From Magnolia sinica (taxonomy: Eukaryota; Streptophyta; Magnoliopsida; Magnoliales; Magnoliaceae): a DNA stretch of 64,000 nucleotides. The notes below the pieces were generated by a model. It made no database searches. It saw nothing but the letters and a program-made list of their open reading frames with translations, and was not told where the DNA came from. The DNA lies in assembly GCF_029962835.1 (NCBI RefSeq), contig NC_080584.1:78706862-78770861 (forward strand), written 5' to 3'. Shown in pieces: positions 3,971 to 50,836 of this stretch. Every line of letters begins with the position of its first letter. The stretch's first letter is position 1. A program made the position numbers and the translations under genes.

Positions 3971-3972
3971 GT

Positions 3973-14131: not shown

Positions 14132-14133
14132 GT

Positions 14134-17100
14134 TGTAACGCTCCGAAATTCAAGGACCGAGTAGGAACTCGGCTCCCGAATTTTCGAGTGCCACGTGTAC
14201 CCTAACGAGCCTCATATGCATATGAAGTGAAGTATCCTGTGGCGATGGAGAATTAAACCAAGCATAGTATGACATCAAACTATAAAGAAATTCAAGTGCC
14301 ACTAATAAAATGAAACATCCAAAGTATCAACCATCAGGGACTAGTCCCATCCATACAGTAATACCCAAAATGACTAGGGCCTTGGCCGAGTCCCACGATC
14401 AACAAAATCAACGTAGAAAGGTCCACCGAAAGTCTGGTAGTATGCTCGCTCCTCCTCGTCGTCCACACAAGCATCCTCCAGCGCATCCAATTCCATCAAC
14501 CCTGCATCTATAATGGGTTCTAGTTGGTGTTTTAAAACACCGTCCCAGAGTAGGAGTGAGTAGCTATCTCAGTGGTACCATTAGCTATAAGTTACACAAG
14601 GTATCATGCACAAGAGTAAATTTAGTAAAAAGCATACATTCACAGAATCCTAGATACTCTGGTTAATGCAAATGTATGATTTAATGATATGATGCATGCC
14701 TCTCACCACAACACTCCCTCTTGCGACACTATCTTACGTTTGCGAACCAACACTCCCTCAAGCAACCTCGACTGCTGAATCGCAAAAGTAGCCAATGTAT
14801 GTAATGGACATGTTAGACTTGTTGATTAATTAAGTTCATTCGTCCAACAGGTTGGGGAAACCGAGATTCTATAAGTGTCATAGTTTATAGCCCTTTGTGT
14901 TATCAAATTTGTGATGCCAAAGACACTATTATGAAGCTTGCATCTGTGAAGAACAATGCACTACCCAAGATCAACTTAGGTTGACAAGCACTGTTCACAA
15001 GTCAAGAATCTCAAGGAGCTTTCAAGTTCAATCTCAAGATCACAAAAAGCTCTCAAGTTTAAACGACAGTAAGACTTTAAGCTCCATTACTTTCAAAGGT
15101 CACTCGTCTCTAAAGTTTCAATGTCTTTACTTCACTATTGAGGTATGGCTGACCTTAGGTTGACGTTTAGAGTAGGCCATTTTGGATACATAATTCATAT
15201 GTTTTATATAAATGAGTTTGGTCTGTTCTAAGACTAGTCCTGGACTTTGTTCGACTAGTCCTAGCACTGCTTCGACCTGTCTAAGAAATTCCTGAATCAG
15301 TCGTAAGTTTGTTACAAAAATCAAAAATTTTCTGTTAGGCTTCGACTAGTCCTGGGGACTGTTCGACCAGTTGTAGGAACAATGTCGACTGCATCTTCGA
15401 CCAGTCGTATACCTACGACTCAAAGAACAGCGTTGAAATTCGGCCACCTACGACCAGTCGAAGGAGACCTACAACCAGTTGAAGGAAAACTACGACCAGT
15501 CGTGAAACTACCAAATCTTATCGCGCCCGAATTTTTAAATATTTGTTGGTTCTATGACCAGTCGTAGAGGTCCTTAGACCAGTCGAAGACGTGATTTGCT
15601 CACCTATAAATAGAGCACGAATCTCAGAATAAAATAAGCAATTCACGTTAATTTATTTTGGTCTTCTGAGAGATAAGTCGGTGCTCCATTTAAGCTAAGT
15701 GTGCATATTTAATATTCTCTTTCTTTAGATTTGTTAATTGATTTTGTTTCTTGCATTCCAATCTAATCTGAAAAGAGGAATTTTGTTTTCCTTTTTCTGG
15801 AATCAAAATCAATTAGAGCTAGCCCTTTTGTTTTAATTTAAAATCTATTAGAACCTAGAACCCTTATAAAGTGAGTATTGGACATTGAACTTTGACATTC
15901 AAATCTCTACTCCGACTTGGTTCTTCTGGGCTGCTACAACGAAGGAGAAAATCAGGTATTTTACAATTTGTGTAATTTACATTATTTAGTTTTATTTTAG
16001 GTTAAGCAAGAAAAATCTCAAAGTTGTTGGTTATCTGAGGAGAGCCAGAAAACTCAGAAGTGAGGGTTTTTGAATTGTGTAAGCCCTTTGAAAAAGACAC
16101 AATTGTGAAGGTTTTGGGTGAACCTGTGAAACCTATTTGATAGTGAACGCTAATATCCCCTGTGTGAGGATATTAGGAGTGGAGTAGCATTCTGTGTGGC
16201 TGTTATTTACCAGTTGGTGAACACACAAGCGAACCACTATAATTCTCTGTGTTGTGGATGTGTGATTTATATTTCCTATCTTTTATCATTCAGAATTGTG
16301 AAATGTATGTGTGGATGAGAATGTTGTAAATTTTACATTTCAAGCTCAGTGGGGAATGTTGTAATAATTTAGATTTACATTTCAGCATTACATTTTTGCT
16401 ATCTCTTTATTACGTTGAGCTTCAATTTCTCTATTTATTCTAGAAATAAGGTTGTCCTACCATAAACTTTGGTTTTTGGTGTAAGGTTGTCCTCAGAACA
16501 ATTTTTGTTTCTATTTCTCTATTTTAGGTTGTCTTCCATTCCTATACTGTGATTGGTGTATAGTGCTATATATTCTTTGTTTCATATTCCGCAGTATTTA
16601 AATTTAATTTGGCATAGTCTTATTCACCCCCCCTCTAGGACATATAGCTTGGCCATTTCAGATTCCCTGTTGGATTATTTTCCTAATCCGATCGCGCGGC
16701 TCTAATGACCGTGGCCGTATGGCTCTCGCAATCCTTAGCCCTTGTGGGTTCGTCATTCTCATAATTATAAGCTCATACAAATACAATTAGTACATTAAAG
16801 TCCTATTCGCAGTCACTATGGGGGGACTCATCATCTCGGCGTAGGTCGACAGCTCGGGAATAGTGTCTCATACCACCATTCCTGGCTCACAAGTCCTCTG
16901 TGCTCACTGGTCACTACGAGGAGGCTCGTCACCCCAGCTTTGGCCAACAATACGGGCATAGTGTCCCACACCGCCATCCCTGGCTCATGAGTCTTGTGGG
17001 CCGCAAATCATGATTGTTAGTGGGTGCAAGGGTTACGGGGTATCTCAGGTTCTAACAGGCTTGCGCAAACATAGTTAACGTACAAGGATGGCCAACCAGT

Positions 17101-18860
17101 GGGCTAATCTGCCCCCATGAGATGAACCACAGACTGTACAGCCTGAGAACAACCTCTCGTGTAGTCTAACTATAGTCGACAATTCGTGGTTTGACTAGTC
17201 GGGTAAAACTTGCCTGTAGGCGGATCCAATGGAAAGATTGCCCATTGACTTTCGGTTAATTGGCTAATCCATAAAGGAGCATGTGAGCAAGTATATATAG
17301 CATTCATTCAACAAAATTTCAAGAGTTATTTCAGTAAACAAAATAGCATGTTCTAACTCCCGACAACATGGACATCAATACACCCAACTTTCATAATTTC
17401 AATTAAAGGTACCCACATATAACTTGCATATCAACAGGCAACATATAGATAACACATTAGCAACAATCATGTAAATCATAAATTAGTAACCAACATGTGA
17501 CGTACAAACCAACAATCAACATGTAACACACAACCAGCCATATTTGGGGAAATCCTACTCGAAATTCCCTGAATTGGACTGATAAATTAGTAATCTACAT
17601 TTCAAGATGCACTCAGAACCTAATCCTCTTTATCAAATTTGGGAAAATCCTACACATATGTTCTAAGTTAAGAAATTCTTAAAATTCAACAACATGCATA
17701 TGCATCCATCACATAAAATCACTATGATCTACACAAGGCACGATAGCCGGCTACCTAGAGGTAATGGTCTGCACCTATTGTCGACCGGAAGCCTTTGTGG
17801 TCGCTCTAGCGGCGTCGGGTCCGCAAGCTCGACGCAACAGGGCCCTATGTTGAATGAAAACTGTAGTGAGGTGCACGCATGTGCCAGATGTTAGAGAGAG
17901 ATGGATAAGAGTCCAAATCTTACCTTGGATCGGACGTAGCTTGATTTTACAGCGATTGGTCGGAGTTTTTCGGCAATGTAGGGATGTAGGTGCGGGGAAT
18001 TACGATCTCCAAGAACAAAGGTGCAATCCTACACCCTCACACACACACTCTCTCTCTCTCTCTTTGAATTTTAATAGCTGATATTTCAGTAAATGAGGGA
18101 GAGATGGCTGGACTTTTATATGTCCAGAATTATATTAGTTGACCCTATAGTTTGGTGTAATTCCCCCAATGGCCTTATGGGCCCATTTTTTATCATTAGG
18201 GGCTGCCTTGATGCCTCCCTGGCCCATCTAATTTATGGGATAGGTGCCCCATGGCGCGATGAAGGGTTGGGCAAAGTTTGACGGCAAACGAATGTTGGGA
18301 TTTACCGCAATGGTCCGATTTGCGGTCAACAGTTACCGATCCTCGATCAATGGTCAGATTTCATGGGCGAGTTCAAGGGAATATTATCAGCCTTCGGTGT
18401 GAATTTAGAAGAAATTCGACGATTGAAATGCCCAAATTTGCTGATTCAAGTTGCGGGGCCAATTGATTTAAAATTCAGATTTTATATCCAAAACTAGGGT
18501 GATTTGCAATTCACAAGTGCTAACTAGACAACGCGATTTGACCATTTTCGAGCGTCATCCAAGCTGGTCGTCTGCGATGGACCACAAGCCCGGTGAGGCC
18601 CCTGGCCTCCTAAAGTTTGAAAATTTTCTATCTAACATTGGGTGGTGCATGACTCGAACAGGCAGCTGCCAAATACAATTGGGCTGACCGACTCTTTGGC
18701 CCATGCTCGGCCTGAACATTATTAGATTTAATCACATTAGTGGCTTAATCCGGATTAAATTATCGATGATAAATCCACACGTGTTATCAAATCATACGGT
18801 CCTGCATCAATTCACACGTGGACGCCTTACGACACTGTTCCAATTGGGCCGGGTGTTACA
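14134..18860 (-). repeat. Gypsy long terminal repeat, right copy (5' LTR), split by an insertion
   Basis: Starts TGTAACACCCGG on the minus strand (18860) and ends GCGTTACA at 14134. The 4727 bp include a nested insertion at 14870-16659; without it and one duplication copy the LTR is about 2931 bp, against 2937 bp for the left LTR. A CT microsatellite sits at about 18040-18063, matching the one in the left copy. The scattered differences between the LTRs (many C/T and G/A) imply an old insertion. Confidence 0.88.
14870..16660 (+). mobile_element. Solo LTR of a SIRE-like copia element, nested in the gypsy LTR
   Basis: About 1.79 kb interrupts the gypsy LTR, flanked by the direct repeat agattc (14864-14869 and 16660-16665); the empty site is visible in the left LTR near 4727. 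It ends with TTCACCCCCCCTCTAGGACA (16623 onward) and CCATTTCA, the usual 3' end of SIRE/Maximus LTRs. A TATA box (CCTATAAATAGAG) is at 15603. The first bases are TA rather than TG, explainable by one transition. The stretch 15225-15590 repeats a GACCAGTCGTAG-type motif many times in both orientations. No internal coding region, hence a solo LTR left by LTR-LTR recombination. Confidence 0.75.
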
Positions 18861-23812: not shown

Positions 23813-24694
23813 TATATAGTTGTTGTAGCTGTAGGTACGTGTCGTGCGAAGACGAGTACTGACGCTCCTCGAGCTCCGAGTTGTACGAACGATTCAAAGG
23901 AGATCAAAGTTATATAGACCCCACAGTGATGTATTTATTATATCTACACCATTCATATATTTTTAGAGATTATTATAGAGCATTGTAAAAAAAAAGAAGA
24001 ATAATATCCAAAGATCATCTGGACCACACCACAAATAGTAGCAATGATAATGATTTTCACGATTAGACAATTCGTGTGGTCCACTTGATGGTTAGATCTG
24101 TCTTATTTTTTGTCTCAAGCCTTAAGACGAGCTCGCCAAATGGATGGACAGTTTGGATATAACACATACCCCATGATCAAACCCACAGAACTTGCTAACG
24201 TCAATACAACAAAGTGCACGTCAAGTGTCAACACAGCTACACTTTTGTGTTGTGCACGTCAACACAGTTATGCCTACACACCTCGAGCTTTGAGTTGTAC
24301 AAACAGCTCAAATGAGATCAAAATTACATGGGCCCCACAATGATGTATTTATTATATCCATACCCTTAATCCATTTTTCGTGATCATTTTAGAGCATTTG
24401 GAAAAAAAATGAATCATATCTAAAGCTCAAATGGACCACACTGAAAATAGTAGCGTGGATAATGATTTTCACCGTTAAAAAATTCGATTTGAATCGTACC
24501 TAACTCGATCCAACTCGGTTTCCCTGACCGAGTCGGACTCGGTTCGGGTCAGGCCAACCGTGCATTGGATCGGTTCGAGTCAGATGTCCCGGACTCGGTC
24601 CCGGATCGGATCGAGTTCGGGTCAGCCTATATAGATTTCAGACCGAATCGAGTTGGACCCAATTCGATCCGACTCGGTCCGATGCCTAGCTCTA
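23379..24694. mobile_element. hAT-like non-autonomous DNA transposon, copy 2
   Basis: Begins TAGAGCTGGGCATG and ends GATGCCTAGCTCTA, with a perfect 8-bp target duplication gttctcat (23371-23378 and 24695-24702). It interrupts a copia integrase/RT frame that continues on the other side. Both ends are rich in CGATCC/GACTCGG short repeats (23400-23580 and 24480-24690). The interior holds two direct copies of a ~200-bp unit (about 23866-24065 and 24278-24480), each containing a 'gatgtatttattatatc' core shared with the foldback family. A (GA)n run lies at 23766-23810. No transposase. Confidence 0.85.
23766..23810. repeat. (GA)n microsatellite
   Basis: About 45 bp of GA with one early interruption, inside the second hAT-like element. 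Confidence 0.95.
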
Positions 24695-28279: not shown

Positions 28280-28284
28280 CACTA

Positions 28285-28770
28285 CAAGAAAATGGGGCTT
28301 TAGCCTCGGTTCAAAACTGTGGCTAAAGCCTTTAGCCTCAGTTTTGCCTCAGTTATCCAAACCGAGGTTGAAACCCCCTTGGATAAAGGCTTTAGCCTTA
28401 GTTTTAGCAACCAAGGCTAAAATGACTTTTATAGTCTCGGTTCTTCAAGTGAAGCTAAAATAACCTTTTTCGCTTCAGTTTTCTTGAAATAAGGCTAAAT
28501 CAAAATTTTAGCCTCCATTGTTTCAAACTGAGAGTAAATCCAAATTTCAGCCTCAATTGCCTCCAATTAAAACTAAATCTATTTTTAACCTCGGTTCTCA
28601 GCAACCGAAGCTAAAGCCTTTAGCCACGTGAGTTGTAGTATCAGTTTAGGTAACTGAGGCAAAACTGAGGCAAAAGATAGATTTAGCCTTTGTTGACATC
28701 AACTGAGGCTAAATTCAATTTTTAACCTCATTTATCAATAACGAGGCTAAATTTAGTTTCTATCAACAAA
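28285..28770. repeat. Left subterminal repeat array of the CACTA-like element
   Basis: More than a dozen degenerate copies of a 10-13 bp word (TTTAGCCTCGGTT, or its inverse AACCGAGGCTAAA), separated by 5-25 bp. In CACTA elements such arrays bind the transposase. Confidence 0.75.
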
Positions 28771-28951
28771 AGCTAACAATATTATAATCAACCAATGATT
28801 GAACCTGTGCGTGTTTCACCCATTTAACATCCGTCAAGACAACAATCAGCACAATACCAACAAAACAATTAATGGTCTATTTAAAGTTTTCAAAACAAAC
28901 AAACTGCCACATAGCCTTCCACATGAACTGTTTTAGTAAGGTCCCCTTCTA

Positions 28952-29147
28952 CGTGACTATTTTCTCTCGGATTGGATCAATCGGTTGGTTTGTAACCTGA
29001 GCAAACATCTGCTTGAAATACTCAAATGTAAGTTTCTCTCTGTTGGACATCACAGCCAAAGGAGCATCATTTCCCATTGAGCTAAGAGCCCCAGTGCCAT
29101 CTTTTGCCATGGACATCAATAGCATCTCCAAGGCTTCTGCAATGTAT
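28952..29147 (-). pseudogene. GLT1: NADH-dependent glutamate synthase exon fragment (captured)
   Basis: The minus strand encodes [37 protein letters not shown] and [20 protein letters not shown], strongly resembling the region between the glutaminase and central domains of plant NADH-GOGAT. That enzyme makes glutamate from glutamine and 2-oxoglutarate in plastids. A splice acceptor (TTATTCAG) precedes the exon at 29148-29155. The frame runs into a stop (28949-28951) right after IVT, where the real protein would continue. It lies inside the CACTA-like element and is far too short to work: a transduplicated genomic fragment. Confidence 0.82.
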
Positions 29148-29231
29148 CTGAATAAGGAAACTCGATGATTTATTTCATTTTTTTCAAACATGAATAAGAA
29201 AACATCACAGAAAAGGTCTGAAACTACTTAC
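29148..29231 (-). other. Captured intron of the glutamate synthase fragment
   Basis: Bounded by a donor GTAAGT (29226-29231, minus) and the acceptor TTATTCAG ending at 29148. Its presence shows capture from genomic DNA, not from a spliced transcript. About 84 bp, a normal short plant intron. Confidence 0.75.
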
Positions 29232-29305
29232 CCAAAAGCCTTCAATGGATCCAACAATCCATGAATTCCCATGTTTTCCATGTTATTATCATCATGTCAA
29301 TATAC
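29232..29305 (-). pseudogene. GLT1: NADH-dependent glutamate synthase upstream exon fragment (captured)
   Basis: Minus-strand translation gives DDNNMENMGIHGLLDPLKAFG, which in NADH-GOGAT directly precedes the sequence of the neighbouring exon. The codon split across the junction (GG/A) restores a Gly. A possible acceptor (TTTAG) precedes the exon at 29306. A stop before the DDNN part and the missing remainder make it non-functional. Confidence 0.75.
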
Positions 29306-30194
29306 CTAAAGTATAAATAAAAATGGCAGTAATGATCATGCTCAGAACTTCTTAAAATCAGAATACAAATAGAAAAACTACTTGAACAATCAAAATTGAT
29401 TGTGTAAGTTAAGGATATCTATAATGATTGTGTACCTGTCATATAGAGGAGAAGAAAAGATTATGTGCACCTCGTGTGCATGAAGATTTAGTGGGCACAT
29501 ATTTGCCACCATCCAACAATCATGGGTGGGAATCGTAACATGATTTTATAAATTGTGTTTTTCAAATTCAAATTTTGAATTGATTATAGATTCCCACCAA
29601 AAACCATTAAATGGTGGGAAATGATGTGCTGCCAGATATCAGCGCTCCCAGTCCGCACTGAAATTCTGCTCTCGGCCATTCTTCTTTACCCTTAGACCTG
29701 CATCAATTTTCCTTAGTCCAATTACTAATGATAGAACTGCATCAATTTGAACAAGTTTAAAATTGATAAAAATTAATTGCAAAATAATAATAGAAAGGCA
29801 ATTGTATAATTAATCTATAAAAAAAAAAAAAGAGAATTACATAGCATTAATCCCTTAATTTTACATGATTGCTTCATAAATTTTCCTTAAAACAGGTGCT
29901 TTGAGGGGCTATAATTTTCATTTTTGGACCACCTATTGGTGGGACCCAATTGCTTCAACAACAGAGAGACCACTTTGTTTAGTAGTCTTCTGGACTGACA
30001 TCACAATACATACTAATGGAAAAGGCACAGCTCATGGCAATCAAATCAAGTAGGATGCCAAAGTGAAAGTGCAGGGGGAAGTCATGGCCACCAGACCATG
30101 ATGATGATGATCATCATCATAGATAATAATAATAAAGGACACTATGGTACTTTTACCTTTTAAAAAAAGGTATTTTAAAAACTTTCCCTAGAGT
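29306..30194. other. Unassigned CACTA-internal sequence
   Basis: No domain recognised. May be further captured intron or element sequence. A short foldback of ATGATGATG/CATCATCAT lies at 30099-30120. Confidence 0.35.
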
Positions 30195-30199
30195 ATTTA

Positions 30200-30922
30200 T
30201 GATGTAGAGCAGGTCGCGGACAGTTTCATGGCCAAGATGGATCATAAAAGGCCCGGTCGACGACAGAAGTGATCCGGACCATCGGACCTTAGATCGGGCG
30301 TATCTCGCAATCCGGAATGAGTTAGCTTACGTAAAATATATGATTTTGGGGTAGAACGAGCTACTTTAGCCAACCAACCCGCTATGCCGGGTTGCGCCGC
30401 CCGGAATTGCGAAAAACCCCTTGATTGACGGTCGTTTCCCTGTTTTAATTTCGTTTTTACTATAAATAGTAAGTTTTAGTTTGATTATAACTCTTCATCC
30501 GTTGGGCTTTAGGAGTTGCGCCCAACGTGAAAAGAGCTTAGAATAATTAGGGGAACGGTTTGGTGAAGCCAAATAGGACACTTACTATTTTTGGCCGAAA
30601 ACCTTGCGCACTAGTAGACATCACGACCGTCTATAAATAGTAAGTTTACTATTTATAGTAAGTCGCGGATTCTAGGAGTTTGAGTTGTAGTTTGATTATG
30701 ATTTCTTTCCCATTGCTTGATACCCTTATTTAAAGGGTTGTGAACTCGATTTTAATCATTCATCAATCAATTTCGATTTTATTAGAATTTATTTCTATTT
30801 TCTGCTTTCTTTCCTCGTGGATTCGAGAAGTCTCTGTGAGGAGTCCAGAGAAGTTCCGTGGATTCGGAATAGTTATCCTCTTGAGGAAGACGGTGCTCGA
30901 CCTCACGTCCTCCCCTGCGTCA
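30200..30922 (+). mobile_element. Solo LTR inside the CACTA-like element
   Basis: 723 bp running TGATGTAGAG...CTGCGTCA with a perfect 5-bp target duplication attta (30195-30199 and 30923-30927). A related copy in opposite orientation is at 47152-47837. The stretch 30465-30660 has several CTATAAATAGTAAG words, including a perfect inverted repeat of 28 bp at about 30632-30659. No coding domain. I cannot say whether it comes from copia or gypsy. Confidence 0.78.
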
Positions 30923-31230
30923 ATTTAGCAACTCTACTCCTGTAACATGTGCTTACAATATCTGAATCATTCATTTAAGTGGGCCCCACCATGGATGGTT
31001 CATAGCCCAATAGCTCAACTGATTGGACCATCCCTAATCCTTGTACTGGAGAATTGTTCTATGTAAGGAATGATGAAGGGAATGTTGGTCAAATTTTATT
31101 TTTTTTAAATTACCCAATTGAACGGTTATCATTCTCTAATCATTGTGAAATCTGACCTTTACCCCATCAATGGTGGATCCTGTTGAATAACTGGTTCAGA
31201 TCTGGTACACATGTGGACCATTGCATAAAA

Positions 31231-31247
31231 ATAATCTCTTTCAACTT
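31231..31247. repeat. LINE target-site duplication, left copy
   Basis: ataatctctttcaactt, 17 bp, repeated exactly at 33298-33314. Confidence 0.9.
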
Positions 31248-33297
31248 CTTCTTTTTCTTTTTTTTTTTTTCTAAAGAAAGTGAGCTCATGCCACAAATAT
31301 CATTGATCACCAAAAACTGTACAGCCATTTCGGGTGGGACCCAACAAAAAGGGGCAGGACCCACCTATCCTATACGCTCAAGCTTTACAAAAGACACCCA
31401 ACAAAAGGAAGAAAAACATAGCAGACAGGAGAGGACATATCTGGATGAACATTAGATCTCTCTCATCGACCCAAGACCAAGTGCATCCATGTTATAGGGA
31501 CCTCTGACGCTGCGAGGGAGGTCGGAGAAGGTAAGGTACGATATGTGATGTTGGGACGATGCGGCTGCTTTAGCTAATGCATCAGCAGGCCCATTACCTT
31601 CCCTCAGGATATGAAAGATGACAAAGGTGACCCTAGTCTTTAGAATTTTGATCCGCGTCCACCAATATTTCCATATCCAAGCTGGGGAGGATTTACCAAT
31701 GAAAGCATCAACCACACATTTGGAATCAGATTCCAAAAAAACCCAATGATAACCCCGGTTAATACAAGTAGTCATTGCGTCGTGGAGGGCCCAAAGTTCT
31801 GCTCTATTATTAGTGCCAATCCCATAACCATTGGAGAAAGCAAAAAGAAAGACTCCAGAAGAGTCCCTGCCAATTCCTCCCCCACCTGATTTACCAGGAT
31901 TTCCCATAGCTGTTCCGTCTATATTCACTTTTATCCAGCCTTGATGCGGTCTGAACCAGTTAACAACCTGAAATGATTTAGGGGTGGGGGTGCGATGACG
32001 AATGTTGAGCAGCTGGAGCGAAGAGAGATCCGATCTGCTTAAGGGTCTGGTGTCGGGGCAGCCAGAGCTAATCCTTATAAGCGATCGTTTGATGCGGTTG
32101 AGAACGTTAACCACGTTTGGGCGGACATCATCAAAACGAGCCATGTTTCTTTCCTTCCAAAGTTCCCAAAGGATGAGACAGGGGATGGCACACTAGATCC
32201 GGGACAGGTTCCTTCCAGAGGGCAGAATGCTCCACCAAGAGGATAGTCTCTCCCAGACCGATACCTGGTGGGGAAGGTGGAAATGGAAGGCACAATTAAA
32301 GAAAGACCAAACTCTGGCAGTAAGGAGACCATTGATAAACAAGTGGCTGATGGTTTCCAGCTTAGGGGTTGCAGGGGAGCGGAGGAGACAGTAGCAGTTA
32401 CACGTTGACGCAAGAGAGACTCCTCTTCTCTGAATTCTATCATTAGTAGGGATCGCTCCTTGGATCAAACGCCAAATGAACATCGAAATTTTCAGAGGAA
32501 GAAGCGGGTTCCAGATCCTGTTGGACGATATCATCATGCCATTTCTAGTTCTGCAGAGATTCTAGGCGGAGTTAACAGTGAATGCTCCCGAACGGTCGTG
32601 AGGCCAGAAGCACTCATCAGGGGTAGAGGAAATGCAGAACCCCCCCGCAGTAATGTGGTGAACAGTCTCCTCTGGAAGAATAGTGGAGATATGCCTTGGG
32701 GGGGGGGGGGGGGGTGGGCGTCAGGAATAAGGACCTTCTTAACAGAGAGATGAAGGAAATCTGCAGGGATGGGCTGAAGGGCGAGATTCGCCAAAGCGCC
32801 AAGGCCAGACCAATTACAAGTTCAGAAATTTACCTCCCCTTGACCAATGTGCCATTGAGAGGCAGATTCTGCAAGCTGAGACATTTTAACAACCTGTCTC
32901 CACAACGGGGAGGAAACCTGATGAGGGGCGGGGGCAGAATCAGACTGCAGGGGCTAGCCATATTTTGAGGTAACAAAATCAGCCCAGATACTTGAGGAGT
33001 TTCTGGAAAGCAACGACCATGCCAATTTGAGACGCAGGGCATGCAGGACATCCTTTAGCCTGCGGATTCCTAAGCTACCCTCCTCTTTAGGAAGAGTAAT
33101 CCTTTTCTAATTAATCCAGTGGAGCTTCTTCTTTCCTTTCCGCCAGGCCTAGAAGAAATCGGTCATCTTTGCCTCCAAATTGGACAGAATCTGAGAAGGG
33201 ATATGAGCAGCTGCCATGGAATGAATTGGAAAAGGATTACTCTTCCTAAAGAGGAGGGTGGCTTAGGAATCTGTAGGCTAAAGGATGTCCTGCATGC
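31248..33297 (-). mobile_element. 5'-truncated LINE with inverted 5' end
   Basis: The insertion lies between perfect 17-bp duplications (31231-31247 and 33298-33314). Its left edge is a T run (31250-31271), the poly(A) tail of a minus-strand LINE. 31274-31451 is the 3' untranslated part and 31452-33214 is the C-terminal part of ORF2. The last ~82 bp (about 33216-33297) repeat, in opposite orientation, the sequence found at about 33037-33119. A 5' inversion inside the duplications is the mark of twin-primed integration. It sits within the CACTA-like element. Confidence 0.85.
31452..33214 (-). pseudogene. LINE ORF2 C-terminal part (RT thumb, zf-RVT, RNase H), decayed
   Basis: Reading from the right: a segment with KKKLHWINWKRITLPKEEGS (about 33140-33085) is the post-RT region of plant LINEs. 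32537-32193 holds the zf-RVT-like block (PLLPLKISMFIWRLIQGAIP). 32144-31452 is an open frame whose C-terminal 150 residues form an RNase H domain with VNIDGTAMGNPGK, NNRAELWAL, LESDSKCVV and NGPADALAKAA; the acidic catalytic positions appear kept. Upstream frames are shifted and stopped several times. The endonuclease and RT core are absent because of 5' truncation. Confidence 0.87.
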
Positions 33298-33314
33298 ATA
33301 ATCTCTTTCAACTT
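33298..33314. repeat. LINE target-site duplication, right copy
   Basis: An exact copy of 31231-31247. Confidence 0.9.
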
Positions 33315-33423
33315 AGAAAAAAGTGGCAATACCTGAAATGCAAGGAGTCAAGATTCCATCCCCTATGACCATGCAAGTTCCAAGAAGAGCCACAGAAAGA
33401 AGACATAACTTATCAAAAGGAGT

Positions 33424-33424
<1 letters not shown>

Positions 33425-33457
<33 letters not shown>
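33425..33457 (-). repeat. Poly-T run, possible tail of another LINE
   Basis: 33 uninterrupted T. The adjoining 33458-33700 could be the 3' end of a minus-strand retroposon, but no target duplication was found. Confidence 0.5.
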
Positions 33458-33458
<1 letters not shown>

Positions 33459-35604
33459 GAACAAAAAATAAGGTTTACATCAAGAGTTAGGATGAGAATC
33501 CCCAATAAAAAGTTTCTGCACGCACCTGGATGCAACTTTGAAACCCATGGAGTGTGGCCAAAGAGCAGAGAAAATCTTCAATCCGTATTACCATAAAGAC
33601 GTGACGAACATGACGTCCATACGTGTATAAAGGGCTTGTATAATGCAATCCTCCTGCACCAAGAACAAGAAAAAAGAAAAAAACAGGGGGAGAGAGATCA
33701 CCTGTGAATGGAGCTCCTATATCAAAGGAAGAACAGTTAAAAGACAATAGAGACAGAGGAAAGCAACAACCTAATCTTCAACAGCAGATGTCCACAAAGA
33801 TGTTTTCTAATAGCCAGGTATGGTACTCCCCTCAAAGATTCTATGGTACTCAAGTTCAAATCTTTATAGTTCAGAATCATTGTGATACAATTCAGTTGTG
33901 AATGAGCTTAATCATTGTGATTCGATTCAGTTGAGCTTCCAAACACACCTATTTGTTTAAGTGGAAATGTGCTGAGAAGTACTCCAACCTCCACTTACGA
34001 GATGGTTTCTTCTGTTTGAGAAACCAGAGATGGGTCTCACTGTTCAACTCTTGACCTTTTAGCATCTACACTTAAAACAAAACTCCAAATAACAGAATTC
34101 CAGTTTGGATTTTTAGGTTTTCCATTCTCCCTAAGGGTTCCGTAGGGATTTTCCATTTCCACATTCTGGATTCTCTCTATCCAAACACTAAAGAGAAAGA
34201 TGTAGCAAACAGAAGAGAACATGTAACCAAGTAGTAACTATTCGAGTATTAAAATGGCAAAGTGATGTAAGGGATAACCAAATTACACACCAGCCTGAGA
34301 AAGACCCAACATTACCAATGCGAGGGAGAGGAGGAGATGGTAAAAGAGTAATGACCCGTAGGACTGCCCAACCACTGTTTTTCCATCCTATACCTATCTT
34401 GGTCTTCTTTTCCCATAATATGCAATGATCAGAACCTCACAGGCACTATCGACAAGAGCATGCGAGCTAGCCCTGCCCTAGGGAATGTGGGTCTGACATG
34501 TCCAGAAAATCAATGGACTTTCCTGTGTTGTTTCATACTCTACTTGTTTCAGGATGAGTAAGACCAGAATGCAATAAGATAGCTATGATCAGGTACAATT
34601 TTCCAGGCCCACCCAAGTGCCATAATATTTTGAATTGGATTTCTGTTACCAACAAAGAGTCCTTTACTGGCTCAGAACATTTAAAAAAGAAGAAGAAGAA
34701 GAAGAAGAAGAAAGAAAAAAAGAATGGTTAAATGCTTAAAACGATTGAATAACAGAAAGACCTCTGTAAAGCTACTGGTTTCGTAGTGCATTGCCAATGG
34801 AGAGTAAGTTATAAAGTTCATCAGAAATCTAGAGCCAGCATGGATTTGAAGGAAAATTATGACTTACACAGAAAACCAAACCCAGCGGTAAAACATAAAA
34901 GAAGGTTAAAATGCAGAAAGATCATCGGAAGCATTAGTGGCAAAATGATCTGCTAGATCACATAATGGCAACAATCAATCAGACTAATCCAATTTCCACT
35001 TCTGAGCAATAAACCCAAAGAAAACCTGACATAGAAAAGAAAAAATATGTAAAGCGATTACAAACGATCGTAAATCTAAAAAAAAATTGGTCAGTTTAGC
35101 CACTGTCACAGCTAGAATGGCTTCAATCTCAGAATCCTTCTCAATAAATGATTATTTTAAAGGAATTTCTGCCAAGTCCTTTTCAACTGTAGACAAAAGT
35201 GTGTTTCAACATTGAGGTCTTGGGTTTGAACCCATAATTACCTATCAAAAATAAATAAATAAGTCATGTTCAACTGTACATTTGTTTGAAAAACTGTGAC
35301 CCAACTGACTATGGGACCAACCTAATTCTTGGGCCAGAGCATCCACATAGTGGAGCCCCCCTGATGAATGCATTCGACCTCGCAACTATGTTGCCACGTT
35401 GGCACATATGTAGTGCATTCAAGAGCTTTCGTCTACAGGCATGCAGACTTAGAAAAGTGATGCCATATGAGAGAAAAAAAGATTGATACTCTAGTAGAGT
35501 GTGATGCCCACAATTTAAAAAAAAACCGTGCAAGTTGCAACTTCTGGATCAAATTCCACCATTTAGGTAGTGGAAACAATGCTCTAATTAGCTGATTAAT
35601 TGAT
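33458..35604. other. Unassigned CACTA-internal sequence
   Basis: No gene or domain recognised. Contains an (AAG)n run at about 34687-34712. Its mixed composition is compatible with captured introns or older repeats. Confidence 0.35.
34687..34712. repeat. (AAG)n microsatellite
   Basis: Eight or so AAG units. Confidence 0.9.
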
Positions 35605-35706
35605 ATTAAATGGCCACCAATTCATGTTGCCATTTTATAGATTAGGTATTAAATGGCCACCAATTCATGTTGCCATTTTATAGATTAGGTATTAAATGGC
35701 CACCAA
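35605..35706. repeat. 43-bp tandem repeat, about 2.4 copies
   Basis: Units start at 35605, 35648 and 35691 with 'attaaatggccaccaa'. The first two are identical over 43 bp; the third is partial. Perfect identity implies a recent slippage or unequal exchange. Confidence 0.93.
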
Positions 35707-35808
35707 CTTCTGTAAAGAAATATTTTAGCTCTGCAATGAGCAGAAGATCATCTGAACTTTCAGGAGGGTTTCTACAACAGGATTTCCCTTCTCTGATTTC
35801 AGTTTGAA

Positions 35809-35811
<3 letters not shown>

Positions 35812-35843
<32 letters not shown>
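35812..35843. repeat. (TG)n microsatellite
   Basis: About 15 TG units. Confidence 0.95.
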
Positions 35844-35846
<3 letters not shown>

Positions 35847-35972
35847 ACATGCTCCTGAAACTGAGAAAGAGAAAGAAGAAGACGCACAAATCTGCTGCCA
35901 TTGACTCGACCGTTCCATCCAAACAATAGAAGCTGATGGCAAGAAATCCCTCCCAAAGCCATTCCTCTGCCC

Positions 35973-36305
35973 TTAAAGAACTGCCATCCCGTCTGCTTCA
36001 GCAGCATTCCTTTCCATAATCCTCTCCACGAAACGAGCCTCAGGGATCGGATCCAACCCCTGCAAAACCCTAGTTCTCCCAATCCACGAAAAATCCATGC
36101 AATACTCCCCTAAATCGTCACCTTCTTCCACATTCCTGCCAAACGTGGCCCTGCTCTTCGATCCATGCCCACGGATCTCTGCTTCCTTCACATCCTCCTC
36201 ATCATCCGCTTTCCTCGACATGAACCCGATCATCTCATCCCGCTCCTCAATGTTCTACCGCAACTTCTTGACACAGATCCACAATTCGGCCTCTGATTTC
36301 TCCAT
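35973..36305 (-). pseudogene. Second gene-like fragment in the CACTA-like element (unknown protein)
   Basis: The minus-strand frame starts at an ATG (36305) with MEKSEAELWICVKKLR, has one stop at codon 17 (36255-36257), then stays open to 35973 with ERDEMIGFMSRKADDEE, EYCMDFSWIGRTRVLQGLDP and ARFVERIMERN. The composition (charged helices, one compact hydrophobic block, higher GC than its surroundings) looks like real protein. A (GA)n run upstream (36466-36498) reads as CT on this strand, common in plant 5' leaders, and a GTAAGT-type donor occurs near 36352. I do not recognise the family. Probably a captured gene start, disabled by the stop. Confidence 0.5.
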
Positions 36306-36462
36306 ATCCTCGATTCGGAGCGTCGGGTCACCGATTTTAACGATACTTACCTCAATTGAGAGAGATGTTCCGAACGGAAGGTGAAGATGTTAGGAAGAGA
36401 AACGATTCGGTGGGGATGAATTGAGGTCGAGTGAGAAAATTTAGCAGAGATGGAGTTTCACG

Positions 36463-36465
<3 letters not shown>

Positions 36466-36498
<33 letters not shown>
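36466..36498. repeat. (GA)n microsatellite
   Basis: About 16 GA units, upstream (minus strand) of the second gene-like fragment. Confidence 0.95.
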
Positions 36499-36499
<1 letters not shown>

Positions 36500-36606
36500 G
36501 TTGAATTCGATCGAAGCTGAGAAACGAAATGGGGGATTTCAAATATATGGGGTGAGGTAGCAGCGGATTAGCTACTGACAGGTCCAGCAACGGATTAGCT
36601 ACTGAC

Positions 36607-37055
36607 GTCACCAACTTCTGTGGGCCCCACCATGATGTACGTATTATATCCACGCCGTCCATCCATTTGGAGAGATCATTTTAGAGCATGATCCAAAGAA
36701 TGAGTCAGATCCAAACCTCGAGTGGACCCCACCACATAAAACAATGGGAAGAGTGACGCCCACCCTTAAAAACTTCTAATGGCCACAAAAGCTTTTGTTC
36801 AAGCTGATATTTGTGTTTTCCCTTCTTTCATATCTGTGTTAACACATAAACAGGTTGGATTTCAAATAAACATCATGGTGGACCTTAAGAAGGTTTCAAC
36901 AGTAAGCCTCACTCCCCACTATTTTCTATGGTGGGGTCCAATCCAGCTTTGGATTTGCCTCATTCTTTAGATCATGCTCTGAAATGATCTCTCCAAATGG
37001 ATGGATGGTGTGGATATAACACGTATATTATGGTGGGGCCCACAGAACTTGGTAG
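36607..37055. mobile_element. Foldback MITE within the CACTA-like element
   Basis: About 449 bp. The left arm (36607-36760; CCAACTTCTGTGGGCCCC, then ccgtccatccatttgga) is matched in inverse complement by the right arm (about 36880-37055; GGGGCCCACAGAACTTGG). The arms are about 150 bp with moderate divergence around a loop of about 115 bp. Related sequence occurs in the hAT-like elements and near 1500, 38700 and 39605. No coding capacity. The target duplication is not clear. Confidence 0.72.
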
Positions 37056-37059
37056 ACTT

Positions 37060-37360
37060 TTAGCTTAAGTTCCCATACAACTTTTGGCCCTTTTCATCTC
37101 GATTCACATACAACTGAGGCAAAATAGTATACCTCAGTTCGTATGCATCTTAGGTTAAAAGTAGACTTTTCACCTTGATTCCTATGCATCTGAGGTTAAA
37201 AAGTAGATTTTTTCCCTGTTTCCTATGTAGCTAAGGCTAAAAAGTAGACTTTTAATTTCTTAGCAATTGAGATTAAAAATCAGTTCCTTAGTAACTGAGG
37301 CTAAAAAACACATGTAGCCTCCATTTTTTCAACTAATGCTAAAAAATTGTGGGTAAAAGC
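37060..37360. repeat. Right subterminal repeat array of the CACTA-like element
   Basis: Degenerate AACTGAGGCTAAA / TTTAGCCTCAGTT words as in the left array, decayed to forms such as 'ctgaggttaaaaagtag'. Confidence 0.65.
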
Positions 37361-37694
37361 CTATTTTCTTATCGTGTGGAACTCTTGACCATGTGGACAC
37401 TCATGAGTGGGGAAGAAGTTGTGATGGGCTCAACTTCTTCATGCACTCTCTTATATATTAGAGTCTTGATCCCTTCATCAAAATATATGAAACTATGATC
37501 CCATTGAAAAAGTTTTCTATATGGTAAGGTGAGGAAGATCCAAGCAGTTTCTTGCGTATTCACAAATGGCTTCCCATTCAGTTATTTTATTGTTTTATAG
37601 TTCATTGATAACATTATTTATTCTTCATCATTTATGCATAGATTGGTCCGTTAATTCCATAATTTTAGTCTAAAATAGCCTTAAATGGTGTTTG

Positions 37695-38180
37695 TGTTGG
37701 ACGTAGACCAGTGGGGCCCACTAGTAAGCAATCACTAGTGGGTGGGTCCCACATGTTTAGACTTCTTCCGGCCTTTTCCATTCGGTTGATATTTTAAATT
37801 CAACTTTGAAATTGAAATATGATAGGAGATAGGGATTTGACCGGATGATATGGTTTCATCCTATCTCATCCAATCTCTTCTTCCTTTCCTATAAAAAGGG
37901 ATGCGCTCTCTCTCGCATTGAATCATCAGAAATACCGAGGGTATACGGAGAGAGATAGTGTGCACCAGAGTCTATCCATTTTGGCTTGTCCTTGGGACGA
38001 TCTAATCCATAGATCGTGATCCAGGGCCACTTGTACCGTAGGATCAGAGGTGTGAATAGATCCATCTGCTCCAGTAGTAGATAGGCGGGCCGTTGGAGCG
38101 TCAATCTTCTACTTTGTGAAGGTTCCAAAACTCGTGTAGACCGTCAGATCTTGAGGACTCATCTTCCGCGCTTCCCTATA
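37695..38180 (+). repeat. Copia 5' LTR (486 bp)
   Basis: Starts TGTTGGACGTAGACC after the target duplication gtttg (37690-37694) and ends CTTCCCTATA. Matches 45774-46259 at equal length with a scatter of point differences. A TATA box (CCTATAAAAAGGG) lies at 37888-37900, followed by a pyrimidine-rich likely start region. Confidence 0.9.
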
Positions 38181-41449: not shown

Positions 41450-44400
41450 TACTATATCTAATGAGTGGATTTTGGATTCAGGCACAACAAAGCACATGAC
41501 ATAGAGTCGTCGAGGACTCGAGGAATTCTGGCCTGTAGCCAAAGGAAGTTACAAGCTGTACATAGGCAATAACATTGTTGAAAACGTACTAGGAATTGGC
41601 GTTCTCCATCACCGTACGCGCATAGGGTAAACAATAATCCTTCGTGATACTCTTTTTGCACCAAGGATGCGTCGGAATTTAATTTCTATTTCTAGGCTAT
41701 TATTTGATGGTTTTGATATTCGATTTTCCGGGACAAAAGTTTCTTTGAAACTGAATAACCTCATCTTTATATGGAGAAATTTAATTTCAGATTTATTTAT
41801 TCTAGACTTATATTATGATAATGTCCCTCTTGCTTTATCTGTTATGTCGAATGAAATTGTATTATCTGAATCTCAAAAATGGCACGTGAGGTTAGGTCAC
41901 ATAGGAAAGGATTGTATGACAAGACTAGTACGTTCTAGTCTATTAGACTCCTTATCAAAAGTTGATTTTTCATTTTGTGAACATTGTGTGTTCGGGAAGA
42001 CTTCGAAGAAACCATTTTTCAAAGTGGCTAGGTCCAAGGGCACACTAGAAATAATTCATTTAAATATCTGTGGACCCTTTAATGTACATGCCAGAAATGG
42101 ATGTCAATACTTTGTCACTTTCATTGACGATTACTCGCACTATGGATATGTGTATCTCATCTCACACAAATCTGAGACTTTTGATTATTTTCTTAAATAT
42201 AAAGCTGAGGTGGAAAATCAGCTTGAGAAAAAAATTAAAATCCTTCGATCTGATAGAGGTGGCGAGTATACATCTGAAACGTTTAAATCATATTGTGAAA
42301 ACGTTGGAATTATTCAGCAATACACAATGGCTTACACTCCACAACAAAATGATGTTCAGAGAGAAGGAATAAGACACTATTGGACATGGTTAGATCGATG
42401 ATGGCACAAGCCAATCTCTCTACTACATTCTGGGGAGACGCACTGTTAACAGCGTCTACATCCTTAATAGAGTCCCAACTAAATTCATTCCTAAGACTCC
42501 ATATGAGATGCGGTCTGGGAGGATTCCTTATCTAGCCAACCTACGCCCTTGGGGATCTTTAGGATATGTTTTGCTACCTACTCCGCATAGAGGTAAACTT
42601 GATAGTAAAACCATTGAATGCGTATTCATTAGGTACCCTATATATTCAAAGGGATACATTCTAGTTTATGAGGACCATGGACGATGAATTGAAATAGAAT
42701 CTCGGGACGTAACCTTCGTTGAAGATAGATACCCAAGCCGAATGCAGCAAAAGGTTCCAACAGAATTTTTTGAAATACCCGATGTATCTCAGGAGAGTGG
42801 AAGTTCTGCTTCTCAAGATGGGGATGTTCCTATAGTTTGTCACGGCTTCTCAAGATGGGGATGTTCCTATAGTTCGTCATGACAGTGGGAGGATATCTCA
42901 GCAGGCTCCTGAGTTACGTTGAAGCGAAAGATGATTGATTCCCCGAAGATACTTCGATATTGAGGGGACAAACATTCTCTTGTATCGCAGTTGATGATGA
43001 TGAACCTGATTCGTATCAGGATGCATTATTATCTTCTAATTCAGCCGATTGGGTCAATGCTATGGACGAAGAGATTGCTTCCATAGAGAAGAATAAAGTC
43101 TGAGAACTTGTTGATCTGCCTTTCAATCACAAAGCGATAGGTAACAAATGAGTACTAAAGATCAAAAGAAAGGCAGATGGTACAGTGGACAAGTATAAAG
43201 CATGATTAGTTGTTAAAGGTTCTACACAATAAGAAGGCATTAATTACGAGTAGACTTTTTCACATGTTGCAAAGTTCTCCTCAATCCACATGACCTTGTC
43301 CATTGTCACGAGTTTAAACTTAGAGTTATATCAGATGAATGTAAAGACTGCATTTTTGAATGGTGACTTGGATGAAGAAATATATACGCAACAGCCCATG
43401 GGTTATGTGGATAAAAAGCATCCAAAGAAAGTCTGCAAGTGTTGAAGTCTATCTATGGGCTGAAGTAATCTTCAAGACAGTGGTTCATGAGGTTCCACTT
43501 GGCCATCACCACTTTTGGATTCATGATGAGTGAAGAAGATTATTGTGTATACATGAAACGGTCCGTAAGGTCTTTTTTGATACTATCTCTATATATAGAC
43601 GATATCCTATTAGCTGGTAATGACATGCAATTGTTGATATTGACTAAAGATTGGCTATTCTCGAACTATGAGATGAAAGACCTCGGTGAAGCCAACTTTA
43701 TTCTCGGGGTAAAAATCATCAGGGATCGCCCTAAGAAATTTTTAAGCTTGTCTCAAGCAACCTATATATAAAAGATCTTAGAGCGGTTCAAGATGGAAAA
43801 TTCAAAAGTTGTTGAAACCCTTATGGATAAAGCTACCAAGTTAGACAGGAAATCGTATCCCCAGATTGAAGCTGAGAAATTGAATATGTCCTCAATACCT
43901 TATGTTAGCGCAGTAGGGAGCTTAATGTATGCTATGCTTTGCACCAGACCGCAAATTAGATATGCAGTTGGCATAGTCAGCCGTTATCAGAGTAACCCGG
44001 GACAATCTCATTGGCAAACCGTCAAACGCATATTTGGCTATCTCATAAAAATAAAAGACCTAATGTTGTGTTATGAAGGCACAAGCCTTGACCTCAAAGG
44101 ATATTCTGATGCTGCTTGGGGTAATGACGCCGATGAGGAAAAGTCTACTTCAGGGTATGTATTCTTACTCAGAGGAGGAGCTATCTCATGGTCGAGTAAG
44201 AAACAGACATCCACAGCTCTTTCATCTATGGAGGCTGAGTACATTACATGTTGTGCTGCAGTTCAGGAGTGTGTATGGGTTCGCATATTTCTATTGAGTC
44301 TGGGTATTGTATCGAGTGTTCGTTAGCCTATATTGCTGAAGATAGACAATACTTCTGCTATTGACTTGGCAAAGGACCCTAAACAGCACTAGAAATCTAA

Positions 44401-45773: not shown

Positions 45774-46259
45774 TGTTGGACATAGGCCAGTGGGGCCCAC
45801 TGATGAGCAATCACTAGTGTGTGGGTCCCACATGTTTAGGCTTCTTCCAGCCTTTTCCATTCGGTTGAGATTTCAAATTCAACTTTGAATTTGAAATATG
45901 ATAGGAGATAGGGATTTGACCGGATGATATGGTTTCATCCTATCTCATCCGATCTCTCCTTCCTTTCTTATAAAAAGGGATGCGCTCTCTCTCGCATTGA
46001 ATCATCAGAAATACCGAGGGTATACGGAGAGAGATAGTGTGTACCAGAGTCTATCCATTTTGGCTTGTCCTTGGGACGATTTAATCCATATATCGTGATC
46101 CGGGGCCACTTATACTATAGGATCAGAGGTGTGAATAGATCCATCTGCTCCAGTAGTAGATAGGCGGGCCGTTGGAGCGTCAATCTTTTGCTTTGTGAGG
46201 ATTTCAAAACTCGTTTAGACCGTTAGATCTTGAGGGCTCACCTTCCGCACTTTCCTACC
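45774..46259 (+). repeat. Copia 3' LTR (486 bp)
   Basis: Preceded by the purine tract GAGTGGGAGA and starting TGTTGGACATAGGCC. Ends CTTTCCTACC, followed by the target duplication gtttg. Contains the TATA box TTATAAAAAGGG at about 45968. Confidence 0.9.
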
Positions 46260-47151: not shown

Positions 47152-47837
47152 TGATGAGGTCGATCACCGTCTTCCCGGGAGATTATTACTTCGAATCCAA
47201 GGAGCTTTTGTGAACTCTTCACAAAGATTCCACGAATCCACCATGCTAAAATAGGAAAATAGAAATGATTCTAATAAATTCAAAACTATATTAATTGATG
47301 ATAAAAATGAAATTACAACCCTTTAAAAAGTAATCTCGAACTTAGGAGGAAGTTTTAAAATCAAACTCCAACTCAAACTTCCTAAAAAAATGTGACTTAC
47401 CATAAATAGTATTGTAAATTTACTATTTATAAACTATCATAGTTTCTACTAGACTTTATGGCTTTCGGCTAAAAGTAGTTAGTGTCCAATTTGGCTCAAC
47501 GGCGTTATTCTCCTAAAGGTTATGACTCTTAAAGCTCAATGATCGAGAGTTATGATCGAATTAAAATTTATTATAAATACTAAATATGAAATTAAAAAGG
47601 ATTTTTGACCTTCGATCTGATGGAATCTCACAAATCCGATGTCGGCAACCCGGGTACCAGGTTGGTTGGCTAAAGTAGCTTTTCCTACCGCAAAATTATA
47701 TAAGGTCAAAACTCATGATTCCGGTTTACGAGATATGCCTATTTTAGGATTCTGATTGTTTTGATTACTTCCGCCTCTGATCAGGCCTTCTTTGGTCCAT
47801 CGTGGACATGAAAGTGTCTGCTATCCACTCTACATCA
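47152..47837 (-). mobile_element. Solo LTR, second copy of the family at 30200
   Basis: On the minus strand it runs TGATGTAGAGTGG...GGTGATCGACCTCATCA and aligns end to end with 30200-30922 (shared 'CAACC.GCTA..CCGGGT', CTATAAATAGTAAG words, 'GACGGTG.TCGACCTCA'), with many differences. The 5-bp flanks do not match, so ends may be worn or one flank deleted. About 0.5 kb downstream of the receptor kinase gene. Confidence 0.62.
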
Positions 47838-48350: not shown

Positions 48351-50795
48351 TTACCTTGAATTCATTGAAGTATTGCTTGGCACCTGAGAGATTTGACAAG
48401 CAGACGGCGAAGACTCAGAGAAAGAAACCATGTTCTGATCTTCCATGAGAATCTGAAGCGATCTTGGTACTGGTGGCACATTCACTTCCAAAACACCCTC
48501 CAAAATTTGAACAATCTGCCCCATCGACGGCCTGTCATTCTCGTTGTCCTGAATGCACCAGCCAGCGACTCTGCAAGCTCGGCTGAGCTCTTCCATGTTC
48601 GCATTTCCCTCCAATCTGTAATCCAACAAGCAATAGATTTTGCCGCTGATGATTTTCCTCACAGCCCAAGTTGGGAAAAACGCCCTTTCCCCAACCGCCC
48701 ATTGCTCTGTATTCCTCCTCCCTGATATGATCTCGAAAACCATCATCCCATAGCTGTAGACATCGGCCTTCGGCGTGATCGCCAGGCCTGAAATCCATTC
48801 AGGCGCAAGATAACCTATCGTTCCTCTCATGGTTGTTAAAACCCTGCTGAATTCCCGCCCAAAGAGCTTTGCCAGGCCAAAATCTGAAACCTTCGGGCAG
48901 AACCCAGCATCCAGAAGTATGTTTTCTGGCTTAATGTCGCAATGTATGATACAGTTTCGGCATTTCTCGTGAAGATAATCTATTCCTCTTGCTGTCCCAA
49001 TCGCAATCTGGTACCTCGTCGGCCAATCCAGGATGTTGGAATTCTGACCAAACAGATGAGAATCCAAAGAACCATTCGGCATGTATTCGTAGACGAGCAG
49101 CCTTTTAGCCACCTCTGAGCAAAACCCACGAAGGTGGATGAGATTAACGTGCTGGATCATCCCGATCGTGCTTACCTCCATCCGGAACTGCTTCTCTCCT
49201 TGCTGAAGCCCTTCAAGCTTCTTTACTGCCACGATTGTTAGATCAGTCAGAGTCCCTTTGAAAACAGAACCAAAACCTCCACAGCCTAATTTCTCCGAGA
49301 AATTCTTCGTTGCAATCAGCAGACTTTTGTAGTTAAATGCAATCAAGGAGTCTTGAACCACCTCCGAACGTTCTATATTCCGTCGCTGACGCCACCTCCA
49401 AATAAAAAACCCAACAATACTCGATAGAAAAATAGACCCTGCAACCGCACCTACAATGGCCCATGTAATGGTACCCTTAGGACCGTCCGAATTCTTCAGT
49501 TCAGACATCGCAAGGCGGAGATGAAGAGTCCTACCTTCAACATTTCCATCAGACAGCTGCTGCAGATCCAACAAATCTCCATTCCATATCAAACACCTGC
49601 CCTGGAAAGCATAAGCAGTGCAAGAACATTCATATAAGCAAGCCCATTCGCATTCTCGGGTAGTCCCAACCGCCAACGAACGCGAACGCAATCCGGCAGG
49701 AAGCTTCATGTCAGGCAAAACCCAGAAGCCATTTTTCTTACCAGTAAACGATCCATTCTGCCCGCACCCCAAATGGGTTTTCCGCATGCAACCCCCTGAC
49801 CAGCTCCCCAAATTCCAGTCCTTTAGAGACTTAGGCTCAAAACCAGGCAAGCACGTACAGAATGGCGATCTCTTCCCATTGCAGCTCCCGAAGGCCCCGC
49901 AGAGACCATAAACCTCGCATTGAGATATCGGCTGCGACCAGAACAGATTCCATATATGGAAGTCTTTCAACCATGTAAGCTGCTTGATCTGGCCTGAAAG
50001 ATCCATAACGAATCTTGAAAGTGTAGAATCATTTTTCATTGAGTAAGTGAAATATTTCCTCTGTTCATCTTCGATGAAGCTGAAATCGAACATATAGTTC
50101 ACCCCCATTTCAGGGACTTTGCTGAAAATCACCCCATCCCAAATCCCACTAGTCCAGTACTTTTCAGTCCCATTCCACATGATAAAATACTGGTTGCTCC
50201 CGCCTGGGTCTATCTCAAGAGAGAACTGCCCAGGGGCCGGATCTTCTGAGTTCTTCCATGAAGTAAGCTGTTGCTTTTCACCTGTAGCCTTGTTTAATCC
50301 GAGCCAACCTCCAGGCAGCCATGTATGAGTTGGGTGATCAAAGCTCTGCCAGTGCACGATGGATGGATCAAACCGATCTCTCATAACGAGATTTCCAGTT
50401 TCTAGGAGGACCACAACCGTCGAATTCAGCGGCTTGGATGTTAAATTGGTGGACCAGATTGGCAAATTTTTGGGGCTGAGGAGGACTAGATTGCCATCTT
50501 CTGCAATTTTTAAGATTGAATCAGAGAGAGCTGGGAGGGGTTTTTCTCTGTTGGCTACCCAGACAACTGTTTGTTCAGAGACTTGTTTGTACCAGATGCC
50601 TATGTAGTAGTTTTTGGACTTGCCTGGTGTGAAGAAACCCAGTTCAAATGTCCCACCTTGGGAGGTTAGGTTGTGGGGCCAACTAAGAGGTTGAGTTGGG
50701 TTGATGGAATCTGAACCATTGGAGAGGTAGGCCTTGAGAGAGAGGATCAAGAAGAAGAGGAGAGAAGGAGATGGCGTGCTTCTTCTGGAATCCAT
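48351..50795 (-). CDS. G-type lectin S-receptor-like serine/threonine kinase (SD-2 type), intact
   Basis: A single-exon 814-residue frame starting at ATG 50795. A signal peptide is likely at residues 1-27 (SLLFFLILSLKAYL). Bulb-type lectin domain about 30-150 (GGTFELGFFTPG, TVVWVANREKP, GNLVL); S-locus glycoprotein region about 200-310; EGF-like Cys-rich part about 293-316 (CEVYGLCGAFGSC); PAN domain about 345-428; transmembrane helix about 443-467. The kinase starts near 498: GCGGFG 504-509, VAVKK with Lys525, HCDIKPEN with Asp620, DFG 638-640, APE 664-666. HCD instead of HRD makes it a non-RD kinase, a class often linked to immune receptors. Length and lack of introns match the Arabidopsis At2g19130 group. 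It sits in the plasma membrane and probably senses an extracellular ligand, which is unknown. All key residues are present. Confidence 0.96.
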   Translation of the reverse strand: MDSRRSTPSPSLLFFLILSLKAYLSNGSDSINPTQPLSWPHNLTSQGGTFELGFFTPGKSKNYYIGIWYKQVSEQTVVWVANREKPLPALSDSILKIAEDGNLVLLSPKNLPIWSTNLTSKPLNSTVVVLLETGNLVMRDRFDPSIVHWQSFDHPTHTWLPGGWLGLNKATGEKQQLTSWKNSEDPAPGQFSLEIDPGGSNQYFIMWNGTEKYWTSGIWDGVIFSKVPEMGVNYMFDFSFIEDEQRKYFTYSMKNDSTLSRFVMDLSGQIKQLTWLKDFHIWNLFWSQPISQCEVYGLCGAFGSCNGKRSPFCTCLPGFEPKSLKDWNLGSWSGGCMRKTHLGCGQNGSFTGKKNGFWVLPDMKLPAGLRSRSLAVGTTRECEWACLYECSCTAYAFQGRCLIWNGDLLDLQQLSDGNVEGRTLHLRLAMSELKNSDGPKGTITWAIVGAVAGSIFLSSIVGFFIWRWRQRRNIERSEVVQDSLIAFNYKSLLIATKNFSEKLGCGGFGSVFKGTLTDLTIVAVKKLEGLQQGEKQFRMEVSTIGMIQHVNLIHLRGFCSEVAKRLLVYEYMPNGSLDSHLFGQNSNILDWPTRYQIAIGTARGIDYLHEKCRNCIIHCDIKPENILLDAGFCPKVSDFGLAKLFGREFSRVLTTMRGTIGYLAPEWISGLAITPKADVYSYGMMVFEIISGRRNTEQWAVGERAFFPTWAVRKIISGKIYCLLDYRLEGNANMEELSRACRVAGWCIQDNENDRPSMGQIVQILEGVLEVNVPPVPRSLQILMEDQNMVSFSESSPSACQISQVPSNTSMNSR

Positions 50796-50825
50796 GCCTA
50801 CTGAAATATGGTTGGATATGCAAGA

Positions 50826-50836
50826 TACATATAGGG
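50826..50836 (-). promoter_or_regulatory. Possible TATA element of the receptor kinase gene
   Basis: The minus strand reads CTATATGTATC about 30 bp before the start codon. That is unusually close, implying a very short leader, so it may be coincidental. Confidence 0.25.

Follow-up and report, generated by a model that had tools for sequence, protein, structure and literature searches.

We propose that a 9.1-kb interval of Magnolia sinica DNA, positions 28280..37376 of a 64-kb stretch of contig NC_080584.1 (hereafter the window, from whose first letter all positions are counted), is probably an old, non-autonomous element of the Pack-CACTA type (CACTA, En/Spm-type), which moved as a unit and is now probably immobile. 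Support for this reading comes from CACTA-like ends and related subterminal arrays that enclose intron-bearing DNA of a glutamate synthase (GOGAT) gene, no whole copy of which is present in the window (Table 1). Stop-to-stop reading frames of at least 70 amino acids (aa) overlapping the interval numbered 29, of which 23 were scanned for domains, the GOGAT frame in its spliced form. None of these 23 frames matched a transposase, and host coding sequence (PF04898) was found inside, the combination by which a Pack-CACTA element is recognized. Apart from the GOGAT domain and those of a retrotransposon described below, the scanned frames matched only two unrelated families, both below the cut-off (E 0.022 and 0.35).

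The first-pass annotation of this DNA had described CACTA-type ends with matching subterminal arrays. As regards the ends, the left one was confirmed as an exact match beginning at 28280, whereas the right one carries 2 mismatches in 13 positions and the target-site duplication, considered below, is imperfect. Read inward on the minus strand, the right end CACGATAAGAAAA is identical to the left repeat CACTACAAGAAAA at 11 of 13 positions, CACTA itself being no longer legible. It was the sole inverted candidate at an edit distance of 2 or less in the 15 kb downstream, with four others at distance 3. Its position, bordering the right array on the outer side, is what gives the right end weight: in a 200-bp stretch about this border, chosen post hoc, 9 of 1000 shuffles had a match with no more than 2 mismatches, which is thus rarer there than in 15 kb as a whole. 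The arrays themselves were borne out at both ends, sharing a motif that is nowhere else in the window as densely clustered. Allowing up to 2 mismatches on both strands, CTGAGGCTAAA was matched 20 times in the left array and 6 times in the right, compared to a maximum of 2 each in 300 shuffles; as this motif was picked after inspecting the arrays, the shuffles overstate the surprise for a single array, and less so for the sharing between arrays. Sliding windows of 300 bp with at least four CTGAGGCTAAA matches numbered 18 in the 64 kb, every one of them overlapping the left or the right array. The motif occurs in both orientations in the left array and in a single one in the right. Local alignment of the two arrays scored 35 in inverted orientation (shuffle maximum, 30) and 37 in direct orientation (shuffle maximum, 32), with 200 shuffles per orientation.

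Other candidates for an element end were considered. With up to 2 mismatches, the CACTACAAGAAAA pattern had 8 matches in the window; 100 shuffles averaged 2.76 matches, and 8 were reached in 3 of them. Since no 300-bp stretch with at least four array motifs was found at any of the end-like matches elsewhere, we attribute these to chance. They include CACTA-like ends at 40.7, 53.1, 20.8 and 27.4 kb, for which alignments gave short partial matches, and the pattern matches at 20584, 22637, 27119 and 62752, judged by the array motif. An inverted end was also sought within the left array, in case the latter was a small complete CACTA element; one weak match was found (edit distance 3, 28479-28491) and this possibility was not adopted. 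Viral contigs contained no exact match to the CACTA end pattern.

An explanation that deserves attention, although we think it rather unlikely, is that 8.3 kb of unrelated DNA came to lie between CACTA remnants of independent origin, one of them a left-end fragment (28.3 kb) and the other a right-end fragment (37.1 kb), in which case the GOGAT piece would have arrived otherwise (by segmental duplication, as filler in double-strand-break repair or within another transposon) and would never have been moved by the CACTA ends. This explanation draws on the observations that weigh against a single element. Firstly, the right end is degenerate, and a right-end-like match with up to 2 mismatches is by itself not unusual by chance in 15 kb (mean 0.28 per shuffle; 13 of 60 shuffles had one or more). 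Secondly, CACTA elements produce a 3-bp target-site duplication, and the 3-bp flanks here are GGC on the left versus TGG on the right; TGG on both sides is obtained only by assigning one extra C to the left end, a shift of 1 base. For its CACTA set, PMC8903248 gives a duplication of 5 nt. Lastly, the interval is packed with unrelated repeats, which make up much of what remains once the GOGAT piece, ~0.4 kb of the 9.1 kb, is set aside. Against two separate remnants, the right array is placed as a matching right end should be, terminates in an inverted terminal repeat and has a motif in common with the left array.

The GOGAT piece consists of two minus-strand open stretches around an intron of 84 nt, whose splicing joins them in frame. 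The spliced product of 84 aa matched the glutamate synthase central domain of Pfam (PF04898, E 4.9e-28) over residues 15-84, corresponding to profile positions 3-72 of 277. In the PDB, its best match was the large chain of an NADPH-type enzyme (3.2e-20, residues 9-84), followed in second rank by a ferredoxin-dependent glutamate synthase (1.8e-18), ahead of three further NADPH-type entries. The fragment clearly belongs to glutamate synthase, and a source gene of the NADH/NADPH type is more likely than one of the ferredoxin type; the fragment probably derives from plant GLT1 (NADH-GOGAT). Of the two NADH-GOGAT exons with their intron that had been annotated, the affiliation to GOGAT and the GT-AG intron were upheld, while the NADH type is only likely and the upstream exon piece amounts to 19 residues (1-19 of the spliced product), of which the best structure match reaches only the last 11. 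When full-length bacterial GltB proteins were used as tblastn queries (10 proteins of 1504-1606 aa, from 10 of 80 fetched bacterial loci), the downstream piece alone was matched, in frame -1, and the upstream piece was not found separately. Besides the in-frame join and the 11 aligned residues, our naming of the upstream piece draws on the sequence of plant GLT1. The retained intron indicates that the capture took place at the level of DNA, not of a processed transcript, and supports the annotators' view that genomic GOGAT DNA was captured between the CACTA-type ends.

Comparison with the bacterial proteins further points to decay of the piece. EGDLTKT directly follows IVT in it, and bacterial relatives (e.g. 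loci L041 and L007) have a like stretch eight residues further on, a displacement showing that sequence was lost and the frame shifted. Across the 80 bacterial loci, 38 columns were conserved at 90% or more, and the GOGAT piece agrees with them in 31; some of the seven departures may be plant-specific. One column is a proline in 80 of 80 bacterial loci and a glutamine here. Truncated, frameshifted and changed at a conserved proline, the piece reads as a broken fragment.

Exon order and intron are nonetheless preserved, as they would be in a degraded GLT1 gene still in place and invaded by transposons. We find this explanation scarcely credible, for all 10 full-length GltB proteins matched the window significantly at the GOGAT piece only, the remaining tblastn matches in the 64 kb all having E values of at least 1.1. 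A GLT1 remnant collinear with the piece, which the first-pass annotation had named as one finding that would speak against its proposal, was accordingly rejected within the window. Viral contigs contained no relative of GOGAT.

How host DNA came to lie between CACTA ends may be envisaged in two ways. A single element can acquire DNA through faulty gap repair. In the published model outlined in PMC8903248 and in the review PMC13317346, two neighbouring elements are handled by the transposase as one, and the intervening DNA is moved along. By either route, the element would have enclosed the GOGAT piece and perhaps also a gene-like region at 36 kb, whereupon transposase supplied from elsewhere would have moved the whole unit to its present site. 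Decay would have followed, with degeneration of the right end and of the target-site duplication, loss of the GOGAT reading frame and insertion of a retrotransposon. The anatomy of the interval fits the model of two neighbours treated as one, and is no proof of it.

The proposed element resembles the Pack-CACTA or Pack-TYPE elements of Arabidopsis, rice and maize, as characterized in PMC8903248, in being non-autonomous, in having CACTA-like inverted ends with host gene sequence inside, in the lack of a transposase (here, in the frames scanned) and in its length, which lies within the surveyed packFinder range of 300-15,000 bp. It differs from them in that its right end and target duplication are imperfect and later insertions are found inside, and it is far longer than the cluster examples given in that paper, which average 311-535 bp; packFinder is described there as discarding singletons. 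A further comparison is offered by Tgm-Express1, a 5.7-kb soybean transposon that carries five fragments of host genes (PMC1947982); it likewise has CACTA ends around host gene pieces keeping exons, introns and canonical splice sites. Tgm-Express1 is the better studied case; the proposed Magnolia element, in contrast, has one identified gene piece and decayed ends, and is not known to interrupt a gene. The present interval would add one case to the CACTA elements that enclose host gene DNA with introns, which have already been described in soybean, Arabidopsis, rice and maize. A search of a limited literature collection returned no paper on a GOGAT piece inside a CACTA element.

The element most likely has no role now beyond that of repeat DNA, and would gain greater importance only if the GOGAT piece were shown to make RNA affecting the nitrogen-assimilation gene. 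The annotation had suggested that minus-strand transcription might yield antisense or small RNA; the orientation contradicts the antisense part, as the minus strand is the GOGAT coding sense. Transcription of the minus strand, starting e.g. in the gene-like region (36.5 kb), would produce sense RNA, and antisense GOGAT RNA would need transcription of the plus strand. Small-RNA effects of captured gene fragments are a general proposal in the literature, and such an effect of the GOGAT piece on its parent gene is possible but unsupported. A role in trans, with the element regulating the parental GLT1 by way of antisense or small RNA, is compatible with a Pack-CACTA-type element, whose interior is in part homologous to GOGAT coding sequence; yet the antisense form meets the wrong strand, and no coding constraint is apparent in the decayed frame, though effects through RNA would not require any. 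We give such a regulator hardly any credence. The gene-like region, with its 5′ part, is oriented like the GOGAT piece and points toward it, and one may imagine a Pack-CACTA element with two host-gene pieces, in which a captured promoter at ~36.5 kb drives a chimeric sense transcript into the GOGAT exons and so feeds small RNAs against the nitrogen-assimilation gene. We consider this scenario very improbable.

Table 1 Features of the proposed CACTA-type element and of the DNA within it
Feature	Position	Strand	Remarks
Left terminal inverted repeat CACTACAAGAAAA	28280..28292	+	Exact match
Left subterminal array, 491 bp	28280..28770		Short units around TTTAGCCTCAG / CTGAGGCTAAA, both orientations, partly self-complementary
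GOGAT downstream exon piece (Glu_syn_central)	28929..29147	-	In frame to IVT (28952), stop, then EGDLTKT remnant in other frame to ~28929
GT-AG intron, 84 nt, retained	29231-29148	-	GTAAGT...CAG
GOGAT upstream exon piece NNMENMGIHGLLDPLKAFG	29232..29300	-	Outer limit approximate; naming draws in part on plant GLT1
Long terminal repeat (LTR)-like piece	30200..30905		~70% identical to 47155-47837 of the window, opposite orientation; outer limits unsure
Target-site duplication of the LINE, copy 1, 17 bp	31231..31247		Identical to copy 2
Nested non-LTR retrotransposon (long interspersed nuclear element, LINE) fragment	31248..33297	-	RVT_3/RNase H and zf-RVT domains; inverted related piece at high-coordinate end
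Target-site duplication of the LINE, copy 2, 17 bp	33298..33314		Identical to copy 1
Gene-like region	35973..36560	-	Possible 5′ untranslated region; 110-codon frame starting at 36305, interrupted once by a stop
Palindromic repeat resembling a miniature inverted-repeat transposable element	36610..37053		142-nt arms, 87% complementary; relatives at 24074-24441 and 1649-1835
Right subterminal array, 302 bp	37075..37376		~41-bp units in middle part; contains CTGAGGCTAAA, one orientation
Right terminal inverted repeat CACGATAAGAAAA	37364..37376	-	2 mismatches vs left repeat

Between its ends, the interval 28280..37376 is composite, harboring a LINE, an LTR-like piece, a palindrome and a second gene-like region besides the GOGAT piece, features that go beyond those annotated earlier. 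The LINE was inserted later than the surrounding DNA; the 17-mer flanking it has only two occurrences in the window. On its 5′ side, a stretch of 84 nt is present twice in opposite orientations, the copies being 90% alike. This inverted duplication resembles the 5′ inversion known as twin priming, although a simple overlap from one twin-priming event does not fit because the copies differ by 10%. The LTR-like piece may be a solo LTR. The gene-like region, with a (GA)n tract and a possible splice donor on the minus strand, resembles the 5′ part of a gene; its 93-aa part (35973-36254) matched neither a Pfam family nor, up to an E value of 1, a PDB entry.

Starting ~0.3 kb beyond the right end of the proposed CACTA element, two direct copies 93% identical to each other (37695-38178 and 45774-46257) bracket reading frames at 41631-44326, which from their appearance we take to be copia-type; the copies are probably the LTRs of a retrotransposon. 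Further along the window, the minus strand of 48351-50879 carries an uninterrupted frame of 842 aa for a G-type lectin S-receptor-like kinase (B_lectin, S_locus_glycop, PAN_2 and Pkinase domains). On the other side of the element, 2976-6909 and 13163-18860 form a long direct duplication of 87-89% identity, the second copy of which is interrupted between 14870 and 16660.

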